A stretch of DNA of 64,000 nt from Aurantiacibacter poecillastricola (GTDB taxonomy: Bacteria; Pseudomonadota; Alphaproteobacteria; Sphingomonadales; Sphingomonadaceae). Positions 14,402 to 45,573 of this stretch are shown piece by piece. Position numbers and translations under genes: made by a program. The stretch is from contig NZ_JAVAMS010000003.1 of the NCBI RefSeq assembly GCF_030730945.1, forward strand, positions 248,001 to 312,000, read 5' to 3'. Within the stretch, counting starts at the first letter, position 1. Every line of letters starts with the position of its first letter. Under the pieces are notes generated by a model, which worked only from the letters and a program-made list of their open reading frames with translations, ran no database searches and was not told where the DNA came from.

Positions 14402-15388
14402 TTACCAGAAGAAGTCGTAGATCACGTCGACCACTTCGCCGGAGTAGATGTCCACGAGCAGGACATCGTCATAGTAGCGAACCCAGCGATAGGGGCCGTA
14501 GACTTCGGGCAGGCGATACTGCCAGGGGTCCGAAATCCAGTAGCGGCTGCCGAAGAACAGGCTGTCGAGATTGAAGCCGATGCTCAGGCGACGGTAGCTG
14601 TAGTTCCGATACGGCGCGTAATAACGACCCAGGCTGTAGAGCCGACGATTGTTCGCGCGATAGCGGCTCCAGTTGTAGCGGTTGTCGCGGCGCCACTGGT
14701 TGCGGTTCCACCGGCGATAGTCGCGTCGCGCCTCGCGGCGGTCGTAGCGCCGCTCCTCGCGGTAGTCGCGGCGATCGCGATAATCGCGCCGGTCGCGGTC
14801 GCGACGCTGGTCACGATAATCGCGGCGCTGTTCGCGGTCCCGGTACGTGCGGTTGCGATCCCAATCGCGATAGCTGGCGTTGCGATCCCCATCGCGGTAG
14901 CTGCGGTTGCGCGTTTCCACGCGGCGATCGCCATTGCGGATGGCGTCGGCCCGGCGGTCACCGCGACGGTCTATACGATCGGCACGGCGTTCGGAGCGGC
15001 GATCGACCTGGCGCGCCTGGCGATAATCGCCTTCGCGGCGTGCCTGGCGCGCCTCCCGGTCGCCGCGACGTTCGACGCGCTCTGCCCGGCGTTCGCTGCG
15101 GCGGTCGACCTGGCGAGCGCGCTGGGCATCTTCGCGATTGGCGCGGGCACGCGCCATGTCGGAGTTGCGGTACTGGCTATTGTTGTCCCGCCGTGCGGTG
15201 CGAGCTTCACCGCGCTCTCCGCGACGCTGCTGGTAATCGGCGTTGCGGTCTCCGCGGCGTTGCTGGTCGGCGCGTATTTCGGCAGAAGCGCCCGTAGCGG
15301 CCTCGGCCGTATCGGGCAGGGCCGGAACCGCCATCGCTAGAGCGAGGGCAGTGAAGCCGACGGATTTGAGCAGGTCTGCGAGTTGCAT
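14402..15388 (-). CDS. RcnB-like protein with long Arg-rich low-complexity region
   Basis: 328 residues. A signal peptide (about residues 1-30, ending TAEAATGA) predicts export. The middle, about residues 40-245, is extremely rich in Arg, Asp and Tyr. It contains a near-exact internal duplication, ARQVDRRSERRA at about 91 and again at 125, 34 residues apart. The C-terminus (about 255-328) with YGPYRWVRYYDDVLLVDIYSG is the RcnB-type domain, whose E. coli member is a periplasmic protein for nickel/cobalt homeostasis. The role of the Arg-rich tract is unknown. I chose ATG 15388, with AAGGGA upstream. Confidence 0.75.
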   Translation of the reverse strand: MQLADLLKSVGFTALALAMAVPALPDTAEAATGASAEIRADQQRRGDRNADYQQRRGERGEARTARRDNNSQYRNSDMARARANREDAQRARQVDRRSERRAERVERRGDREARQARREGDYRQARQVDRRSERRADRIDRRGDRRADAIRNGDRRVETRNRSYRDGDRNASYRDWDRNRTYRDREQRRDYRDQRRDRDRRDYRDRRDYREERRYDRREARRDYRRWNRNQWRRDNRYNWSRYRANNRRLYSLGRYYAPYRNYSYRRLSIGFNLDSLFFGSRYWISDPWQYRLPEVYGPYRWVRYYDDVLLVDIYSGEVVDVIYDFFW

Positions 15389-15472
15389 TGCAACATTTCC
15401 CTTCGTGTTGATCAATGCCGCTCGAGTGCCGCGGCGAGTATTGTCGTAAGGTGTCATTCGATATGTCACTTT

Positions 15473-15566: not shown

Positions 15567-16142
15567 GTGCTGGAAAGCCTGGCTGAAATCCGCGACGACA
15601 TGGCGCAAAGATTGCAGGAGGGGGCGACCAACCGCAAGTCGGCGCTGCATTCGCCGGTGGTGGCCACGACCGATGCGGACGCGCGGGTCATGGTGCTGCG
15701 CGCCTTCGACAGGGTGGGCTGGCGACTGCGCTTCCACACCGACGCGCGCTCTCCCAAATGCGCCATGATCGGGGACGGCGCCCCGGTCGGCGTGCTGTTC
15801 TACGATCGCGAGGCGAAGCTGCAGATCCGCTGCCGTGGGCGCGGCTGGATCGAGCGGGACACCCCGCTGGCGGACGCCGCGTGGCAGGAGAGCACCAACT
15901 TCGCGCGCCGCTGCTACCTTGGCGAGGGGCCGGGAGCGGTGTCCGATAGCCCCACATCCGGCTTGCCGCCGCAGTTCGAGGGGGTGGAGCCGACCGACGC
16001 GGAGCTTGAACCCGCCCGTGAAAATTTCGCCGCGTTGCTGGTGGAGCTTGAGACCGCCGACTGGTTCAGCCTCGCCCATACCGGCCATCGCCGCGCGCAG
16101 ATCGACCTTGCCAGCGGGGAAGGGCAGTGGCTGGCGCCCTAA
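15567..16142 (+). CDS. Pyridoxamine 5'-phosphate oxidase-related flavin protein
   Basis: 191 residues with the split-barrel flavin fold. RVMVLRAFDRVGWRLRFHTDARSPK is the strand/loop block that binds FMN phosphate in PNPOx-like proteins, and GVLFYDREAKLQIRCRG follows as in the family. The C-terminus WFSLAHTGHRRAQIDL resembles the WRL(x)RI-type end. It is probably an FMN-binding oxidoreductase rather than authentic PdxH, which has extra pyridoxal-binding residues. The start is GTG, preceded by AGAGGGGG. Confidence 0.8.
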   Translation: MLESLAEIRDDMAQRLQEGATNRKSALHSPVVATTDADARVMVLRAFDRVGWRLRFHTDARSPKCAMIGDGAPVGVLFYDREAKLQIRCRGRGWIERDTPLADAAWQESTNFARRCYLGEGPGAVSDSPTSGLPPQFEGVEPTDAELEPARENFAALLVELETADWFSLAHTGHRRAQIDLASGEGQWLAP

Positions 16143-16185
16143 CCTGGAACACATGGAACACTGTCCAGGGGCAAAAACCGTCTTT

Positions 16186-16318
16186 GTGTCACTCTCGGGC
16201 CGGAAAAGTGTCATCATGGCGCGCAAAGTGTCACCCTGCGGGCTGCGAGTGTCACCCTGCGGAGCGCAAGTGTCACCCTGGACCGGGTGGAGTGTCACCC
16301 CCTTGCGAAAAGTGTCAC
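16186..16318. repeat. Seven-copy GTGTCAC array with about 21-bp phasing
   Basis: GTGTCA(C/T) begins at 16186, 16208, 16228, 16249, 16270, 16292 and 16312, so steps are 22, 20, 21, 21, 22 and 20. The extended consensus is AAGTGTCACCCTGCGG. The mean step of 21 bases is two turns of B-DNA, so all copies face one side of the helix. Steps of 20 and 22 would break a protein reading frame, which favours a DNA-level function. The array lies between two converging genes, not in a promoter. The rest of 16143-16406 holds a CCTGGA/TCCAGG inverted repeat (16143-16179) and one TGTAGGAAA motif. Confidence 0.85.
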
Positions 16319-16386
16319 GCCGGCGGCAGAGTTCGGAGGGTATTGTGGCGAGCGACATGGCTCGTGACCTGTGCGCTCTGACGCCC

Positions 16387-16395
16387 TGTAGGAAA
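16387..16395 (+). promoter_or_regulatory. TGTAGGAAA motif copy
   Basis: The sequence CCTGTAGGAAAGAG includes TGTAGGAAA, the same core seen at 38538 and, inverted, at 52088. Here it lies between convergent genes just beyond the GTGTCAC array, so a promoter role is not supported at this site. It is listed as a sequence match only. Confidence 0.25.
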
Positions 16396-16406
16396 GAGCG
16401 CGACGC

Positions 16407-16916
16407 CTAGACGTCGTCGCCCGGCGTGATGCTGGCGAGCACGCGGCGCAGCGTGCGATAGAGCACGGCCACGGTCGCGGCGATCAGGCCCACCATCGCA
16501 ACGCATGCGGCGTAAAGCCAGTTGTAGAGGTTGTCGAACCAGGCGGAGGGCAGTTCCTCGAATTCGCCCACGGGCAGGGTAAAGGCGAGCAACACGATCA
16601 GGCCGAACATCAATGTGACGGTGGCGAGCCGGGCGATCAGTTCGATCCCGTGATAGGTATCGTCGTCGAAGCGGTTCTCCATCCGGCGCATCATGCCGAT
16701 CAGAGTGAGCATCAGCGCGAGCGTCGTGGATGCCGCCGTCACGATAGCACTGCCGAGGTAGAGCCCCGCGCGGCTCAATGCCTCGATCAGCGAGGTGGCC
16801 TCGGCGGTCGAGTAGATCGTCCCGATGGCCTGCCGCGCGCCATAACCGATGGCGCATACTGCAAGGAACGTCCCGATGGCCCAGAGGTGGTGTCGATGGG
16901 TAATTCTGCTGGACAT
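16407..16916 (-). CDS. Integral membrane protein of unknown function
   Basis: 169 residues with four hydrophobic segments: LWAIGTFLAVCAIGYG, AIVTAASTTLALMLTLIGM, LATVTLMFGLIVLLAFTLP and AACVAMVGLIAATVAVLY. I do not recognise a named family. The loop after helix 2 is charged (RRMENRFDDDTYHG) and contains one His and several acidic residues. It ends next to the repeat array and shares no obvious operon with its neighbours. I chose ATG 16916 (MSSRITHRHH); the upstream frame adds a basic stretch with no family support. Confidence 0.7.
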   Translation of the reverse strand: MSSRITHRHHLWAIGTFLAVCAIGYGARQAIGTIYSTAEATSLIEALSRAGLYLGSAIVTAASTTLALMLTLIGMMRRMENRFDDDTYHGIELIARLATVTLMFGLIVLLAFTLPVGEFEELPSAWFDNLYNWLYAACVAMVGLIAATVAVLYRTLRRVLASITPGDDV

Positions 16917-23935: not shown

Positions 23936-24011
23936 GGGCCTGTAGCTCAGTGGTTAGAGCTGGCCGCTCATAACGGCTAGGTCGCGGGTTCGAATCCTGC
24001 CGGGCCCACCA
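23936..24011 (+). tRNA. tRNA-Ile2 (CAT anticodon, lysidine type)
   Basis: 76-base tRNA. Acceptor GGGCCTG pairs with CGGGCCC, and CCA is encoded. The anticodon loop CTCATAA gives CAT. The anticodon arm, variable region and T-arm (GGTCGCGGGTTCGAATCC) match the tRNA-Ile2 pattern known from ileX rather than elongator Met, which usually starts GGCGGG in this group. CAT must be modified to lysidine by TilS to read AUA. Confidence 0.85.
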
Positions 24012-37482: not shown

Positions 37483-37562
37483 GCAATCCCCATTCTACGA
37501 CCGTTGCGGAGTTGCAAGCGAGCTAGAGCCTGCCGCGCCGCAACGCAAGTGTCACAAGCTTT

Positions 37563-45392: not shown

Positions 45393-45481
45393 CATGGGCC
45401 TTCGGGCACTCTTGCGAAGGTTTCGCCACGCGCTAATACTGTAACCGCGGATACCGGGCCCCTCTGGCGGGCGGCGCAAGC

Positions 45482-45573
45482 CTCCCGTGATGTCGGACCG
45501 CATCGGAAAGCCGATGCTGTTTCGACGGGAGATCGATCTCCTCCAATTGCATCGGCAGATGGATGAAGAGGAG
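45482..45573 (+). promoter_or_regulatory. Structured leader upstream of the carbonic anhydrase gene
   Basis: CTCCCGT (45482-45488) pairs with ACGGGAG (45525-45531), enclosing GCATCGG (45500-45506) with CCGATGC (45511-45517) around an AAAG loop. A second GCATCGG at 45549-45555 could pair with the same CCGATGC instead. CTCCTC (45538-45543) could pair with the GAGGAG ribosome site (45568-45573). These alternatives look like a translation-control switch. No known riboswitch class is recognised. The rest of 45393-45481 shows nothing further. Confidence 0.4.

Follow-up and report, generated by a model that had tools for sequence, protein, structure and literature searches.

We asked what a row of seven short boxes is doing between the 3' ends of two convergent genes in Aurantiacibacter poecillastricola. 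The boxes lie in what we call the window, that is, the whole stretch of 64,000 nucleotides that was analysed, and the positions given below are those of the window unless a contig is named.

The seven boxes and the element that holds them

Each box matches GTGTCAY on the forward strand (16186 to 16192, 16208 to 16214, 16228 to 16234, 16249 to 16255, 16270 to 16276, 16292 to 16298 and 16312 to 16318), and successive boxes are 22, 20, 21, 21, 22 and 20 bp apart. The second box reads GTGTCAT and the other six GTGTCAC; four of the seven carry GTGTCACC and the remaining three are GTGTCACT, GTGTCATC and GTGTCACG. These coordinates and steps confirm those of the initial annotation, and so does the location of the array between two 3' ends. 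The left neighbour (15567 to 16142, forward strand) encodes a PNPOx-like protein with a match to Pyridox_oxase_2 (PF12766, 2e-6). The right neighbour (reverse strand, 16407 to 16910, ending at 16407) encodes a product that looked membrane-like by eye; it had no Pfam match and has relatives in 10 of the 39 other genomes of the genus.

The initial annotation overlooked what lies on either side of the array. The boxes are an optional insert within a larger element (16139 to 16396) that begins with a 31-bp leader, CTAACCTGGAACACATGGAACACTGTCCAGG, and closes after the boxes with a right end, GTAGGAAAG. The leader with its flanks (16139 to 16177, forward strand) consists of CTAACCT, then GGAACACAT GGAACACTGTCCAGG, and an AAAAA stretch. 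Its sequence GGAACACATGGAACACTGTCCAG at 16146 is the sole leader match in the window, and none was found in 100 shuffles. The first box starts 40 bp from the GGAAC of the leader, and the right end (16388 to 16396, forward strand) lies 242 bp from the same point. As the stop codon TAA of the left gene (16140 to 16142) falls inside the leader, little of the gap between the convergent genes lies outside the element.

Across the whole window GTGTCAY matched 16 times, compared to 9.6 expected, a count that was reached in 5 of 100 shuffles. Nine of the 16 matches lie outside the array, and this number is at background level. The lone copies that the initial annotation lists at 37547 and 62339 (they are found at 37549 and 62340) belong to this background. 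Elsewhere in the window we noted a terC RNA (45445 to 45505, forward strand; Rfam match RF03067), tRNA matches at 23936, 24037 and 47062, and a long open reading frame (14402 to 15469, reverse strand) whose translation is arginine-rich with several short tandem repeats.

We then compared this site in related genomes. In at least three of them (G033, G013 and G014) the leader and the right end are present and the array is not; the distance from leader to right end is 123 bp in G014 (L112) and 122 bp in G033 (L114), compared to 242 bp in the window, and L114 contains one isolated box-like match. The right-hand gene is present in 11 genomes of the genus, including the own genome (G000). The own genome, G033, G013 and G030 have a leader close to the 3' end of this gene, and in G002 a leader of another dialect lies 418 bp from it. 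In the six other carriers of the gene (G011, G010, G036, G026, G017 and G035) the 420 bp next to its end showed no leader. Among the genomes compared, only the own genome has a box array at this site. As the relatives have the leader without boxes, the array was either gained here or lost elsewhere, within an older element.

A dispersed family with genome-wide dialects

The own genome (3.88 Mb in 34 contigs) contains 21 leaders at up to three mismatches, that is, 20 in addition to the one in the window, while a reversed control gave none. Eight of the 21 are followed by arrays of 7–8 boxes on the same strand and 13 have no array. For a wider comparison we assembled 81 copies from five genomes: 21 from the own genome (all 21 leader matches), 17 from G018 (of 18), 20 from G014 (of 22, the three-mismatch ones being left out), 20 from G033 (of 21) and 3 from G010 (of 9). 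A right end of the GTAGG type was found 60–300 bp from the leader in 72 of these copies, and in 51 of the 81 the distance was 99–146 bp. At the level of locus groups, 30 of 35 have the right end and 5 lack it. At shared sites the distance between the two ends is nearly constant (121, 120, 120 and 120 bp at one, 123, 123 and 123 bp at another, 179–182 bp at a third), and the interior of the elements has diverged. The seven boxes are thus the variable part of a dispersed element that occupies about 20 places per chromosome in the most-studied carriers, which are Erythrobacter-like bacteria.

A two-ended pattern that disregards the dialect of the leader was present in 56 of 396 Sphingomonadales genomes and in 11 of 84 genera, all from the family to which the own genome belongs, with at most 21 copies per genome and none in the reversed control; this pattern recovers the copies only in part (in the own genome, 5 of the 21). 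The TGGAACAC leader was found in at least 116 stretches of named genome contigs, and among the matches listed the records come from Erythrobacter, Qipengyuania, Aurantiacibacter, Pontixanthobacter, Altererythrobacter and relatives, some being labelled just Alphaproteobacteria or Sphingomonadales. In four further genomes (G035, G231, G298 and G150), 11 of the 19 distinct sites read, out of 40 copies there, have the same gene on either side as an element site in the first five genomes. Upstream of a gene read as ispG, one locus of G298 (L302, contig C34, 121136 to 121186) has two complete leaders in tandem at a distance of 29 bp. Viral sequences gave two stretches with the leader, and the layout was absent from the 250 bp read in each; plasmids gave no match to the element. 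In the open-licence literature, as far as its text was accessible to searches by leader and box sequence and by topic, we found no description of this layout as a family.

The core of the leader is a tandem 9-mer that exists in variants (TGGAACACn, TGTGACAGG, TGAGACACn and others), and different species carry different dialects, for example TGGAACAC and TGTGACAG. At 26 loci, one per genome, the leaders read TG-GA-ACAC, TG-GA-GCAC, TG-TG-ACAG, TG-TT-ACAC, TG-AC-ACAC or TG-AG-ACAC, and the variable dinucleotide was identical in both 9-mers at all 26. Unequal repeats were seen in 2 of 13 listed leaders of G231 and 1 of 13 listed leaders of G035, and the register of the 9-mers is a poorer match for the array-side leaders of G182 and G473. 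An exact search for TGTKACA leaders found them in 4 of 296 genomes, with 18, 14, 7 and 1 copies. The site read as lepB-pgi illustrates the pattern: in other species the right end is the same but the leader is another one, for example GGTGTGACAGGTGTGACAGTGTCC, and several species have none (30 loci read, 40 genomes searched).

Leaders at different loci of one genome are 0.85–0.92 identical. Within a dialect, identity at shared sites (0.88, 60 pairs) was close to that at unrelated sites (0.85, 660 pairs), and at shared sites across dialects it was 0.61 (25 pairs). The leader sequence therefore tracks the genome and not the locus, which indicates a partner that acts in trans.

Helical phasing of the boxes and placement of the elements

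The boxes were proposed earlier to be a DNA-level signal on one face of the helix, and the eight arrays of the own genome bear this out. A path finder traced 58 boxes in them with 50 steps (28 of 21 bp, 14 of 22 bp and 8 of 20 bp), and the first box lies at +40 in five arrays and at +41 in three. The best period over the eight arrays is 21.05 bp, and box positions hold to within 1–2 bp across 130 bp. The errors of the steps compensate one another, with steps of 22 bp offset by steps of 20 bp: the cumulative variance was 2.47, compared to 8.00 when the steps were shuffled (p 0.0043). Linkers of the same index were no more alike than linkers of different index (0.350 and 0.337, p 0.17), so that no common ancestry was detectable. 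Since the linkers show no common descent, the boxes appear to be kept by selection and not by recent copying; a shared ancestral array could still be a partial source of the step patterns.

The expectation that close relatives carry such arrays was mostly not borne out for the exact box. Runs of three exact GTGTCAC boxes are present in 3 of 40 genomes of the genus, two of these runs being apparently unrelated by sequence, and GTGTSAC runs are rare in the family as a whole (6 of 298 genomes); degenerate arrays are present in other relatives. At the locus read as ruvA-aroC, boxes are found in G000, G014 and G033, partly degenerate, and there are none in G018. We collected 14 further arrays from other genomes and dialects, 12 of them with at least three boxes and two that are two-box chains, which are as long as those found in 3 of 50 box-less elements. 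Among the 12 longer ones the first box lies at +40/41 in eight, at +39 in one and at +31/32 in three, all three from one dialect, where the offsets in dialect leaders are counted from an anchor on TCC that was chosen by hand. The right end of box-less elements showed no phase signal at 10.5 bp (R 0.09). All eight arrays of the own genome are among the nine sites of contigs C1, C23 and C34, and none is among the 12 sites of C12 and C29 (p 4.4e-5, for a grouping of unordered contigs that was picked after seeing the data); the best ParB match of the own genome is on C1.

Next, we determined how the elements are placed with respect to genes, which were called with a script trained on codon use that errs at some loci, for example in the HTH group described below. 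With the gene on the leader side named before that on the right-end side, the 35 locus groups are -/- in 15 cases, -/+ in 11, +/- in 6 (convergent, the type of the window) and +/+ in 3, by majority vote with four ties. The convergent setting, to which the initial annotation tied the meaning of the site, is therefore that of 6 of 35 groups by our own gene calls, ties included, and such a meaning is not supported. In tandem gaps the orientation of the leader is biased (15 versus 3 groups, p 0.0038). Neighbouring genes, read by eye from their translations, include recA, ctrA, folP, ccrM, ruvA, aroC, lepB, pgi, rpsA and sdhB.

Along the chromosome, spacing tests from which single-site contigs were omitted found the sites of G018 (p 0.0016) and those of G033 (p 0.008) to be spread more evenly than expected by chance, and those of G014 marginally so (p 0.054); as these three genomes share sites, their results are not independent. 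No even spacing was seen in the own genome (p 0.64). In G018 the 17 sites go all round the chromosome without a large empty zone, and 11 of the 17 are co-oriented along the replichores, with the origin inferred from parB. We rejected replication-polar sites of the KOPS or Ter kind, as 11 of 17 in G018 is short of a uniform orientation.

In two locus groups the leader lies inside a coding sequence. One is a phage-lysozyme-like gene (PF00959), in which the leader lies 125 nt past the start and its DNA encodes QDSVPCVPH or similar, so that here the reading QDxVPxVP comes directly from leader DNA. The other is an HTH-type gene with no Pfam match, where the leader encodes GQCSMCS or GLCSTCS in the DNA of four genomes. 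This gene gave 957 homologues, and in the best 120 of them the linker contains GxCSxCS in 27, DxV[PS]xV[PS] in 37 (at least one of which, P0085, is chance-like) and neither in 56. As the 37 were read as protein alone, we infer that they carry the leader in a second reading frame; the DNA of this gene was not found in loci L133–L248. The leader is a signal at the level of DNA, and not a peptide or a promoter. Two side observations concern these genes. In L019, L073, L094 and L121 the leader gives the HTH-type gene a CxxC pair beside an upstream CxxC, where homologues elsewhere have VPxVP. The lysozyme-like gene is found in L035, L085, L103 and L126, and in the last three it is adjoined by a small gene, XRE-like by eye, with a TGTAAAGAGCTCTTGACTGACAAGAG inverted repeat.

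A putative docking site and its nearest known relatives

We consider it about evenly balanced whether the element is the docking site of a putative DNA-binding protein that co-evolves with it, aligns along the in-phase boxes and probably has an architectural function. Such a protein would dock sequence-specifically, as a tandem or a dimer, on the leader with its two 9-bp repeats and TGTCC, and would also touch the GTAGGA[AC]AG right end. Where boxes are present it would line up cooperatively on a single face of the helix with one contact per two turns, and it may serve to anchor, bridge or insulate the chromosome where transcription units border. That the partner is a protein, that it assembles in this manner and that its role is architectural are each likely; the many fixed sites, which are found with every orientation of the neighbouring genes and also within two genes, make an architectural role the likeliest. 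The preferred orientation of the leader in tandem gaps is a feature that a purely architectural site does not need. Other points that speak against this reading are the lack of even spacing in the own genome, the five groups with no right end, the leaders with unequal repeats, the low folding energy on both strands and the six carriers of the right-hand gene that showed no leader near it.

The main rival, which we regard as a serious though doubtful alternative, is a regulon: the leader would be the operator of a transcription factor for about 20 genes, to which the boxes would add cooperative sites, and the dialects would reflect ordinary drift of both factor and operators. The leader-side gene has its called start facing the leader in 66 of 81 copies and 26 of 35 groups, a change of motif by clade with stable membership is known, for instance, for LexA, and box arrays could strengthen control. 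Nevertheless, a site upstream of each controlled gene was not what we found: 9 of the 35 groups (one of them a tie), including that of the window, lack a gene start on the side of the leader, the leader lies within coding sequence in two groups, no common promoter element was seen around it, and the neighbours, named by eye, read as unrelated housekeeping genes. The orientation bias in tandem gaps and the way in which the element of the window fills its convergent gap would also suit an insulator or a roadblock to transcription where units border, in which case the array would block more strongly. We think this unlikely, since the divergent gaps of 11 of the 35 groups need no roadblock and the two genes with internal leaders must be transcribed through.

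An RNA element would account for the strand of the reversed leader, which runs in the sense direction in both coding cases and in 15 of the 18 tandem groups, and the mean folding z over 51 elements is slightly but significantly below zero (-0.82 and -0.66 by strand, SE 0.17 each). Yet this excess is small and present on both strands without preference, no Rfam match fell on the element (window and 8 loci), and the boxes follow a 21-bp helical phase with compensation; we hold this explanation to be very unlikely. Highly improbable, too, is a selfish or mobile repeat, be it of the REP, MITE or Rickettsia-palindrome kind or a set of transposon ends, even if the copies are dispersed, lie partly within genes, differ in dialect by genome and have repeated end-like motifs. 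A Y1 transposase is encoded once in the own genome and likewise in the carrier G034, but in the genus it is limited to 3 of 40 genomes (these two and G009) and was not found in the carriers G014, G018, G030 and G033. Moreover, the sites are common to different species and dialects, the adjacent genes listed include no transposase recognisable by eye, and, among the matches listed, the ends are homogenised and the interior is not.

Several specific candidates were rejected. The array does not read as IS21 or other transposon ends, as no transposase was seen by eye in adjacent genes and the sites are common to species, and it does not form a REP/RAYT system, as the Y1 transposase does not accompany the element despite the one in the own genome. 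An iteron origin was dismissed because no initiator gene was recognised by eye beside the arrays of the own genome and no plasmid matched. The search for the binder yielded none; a ParB-type (Noc-like) partner was the candidate tested, and such a paralogue is not needed, with a single ParB_N match in each of G033, G010, G008 and G001.

Returning to the docking protein, we tentatively suggest a wider possibility: the elements may form a chromosome-marking system of a kind not described before, in which a DNA-binding factor evolves fast and the sequence that it recognises at some 20 fixed loci changes in concert within each lineage, the 21-bp arrays being optional assembly tracks that lengthen or shorten at certain loci. 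If so, two bases of the 9-mer changed at every locus would amount to a bacterial dialect code with one reader. The family exposes a set of DNA sites in sequenced isolates, so that the binder is directly accessible to pull-down, and the dialects of the lineages offer a natural experiment on the joint change of a DNA-binding protein and some twenty sites. Were the binder architectural, this would be a new way of marking places on a bacterial chromosome.

Finally, we compared the element with known systems. Arrays of short repeats serve as an assembly track in ParB-parS and in ribbon-helix-helix partition systems; the present arrays differ from these in their 21-bp period and long linkers and need no extra ParB. 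Plasmid and phage iterons are similar, with GTGTCAC repeats at 19–23 bp in at least 120 phage-contig stretches (read up to 45 bp before and up to 95 bp after each start), whereas here the repeats are scattered over a chromosome. In the IMG/VR contigs (L325–L404), GTGTCAC triples often have a reversed TGACAC between them, and by eye these look like coding repeats or replication iterons. Dispersal between genes, dialects that differ by species and a GTAG motif are features that REP elements with RAYT transposases have in common with the present family, but our elements have no consistent hairpin at the right end, the Y1 transposase was not found in several carriers, and the sites are conserved between species. 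In LexA-type regulons the operators drift by clade while loci and members stay, a likeness that extends to the conserved loci and clade-specific motif of the present family; unlike such operators, the element is not tied to promoters and occurs inside coding sequence and between convergent genes. The nearest kind are the sites of MatP (matS), SlmA (SBS), Noc (NBS) and RefZ (RBM), where one protein reads several to tens of short sites per chromosome, between or inside genes. The element shares with them its many copies over one chromosome at conserved loci; what sets it apart is a right end that lies at a distance, phased arrays that are optional and a tandem 9-mer whose dialect differs between clades.
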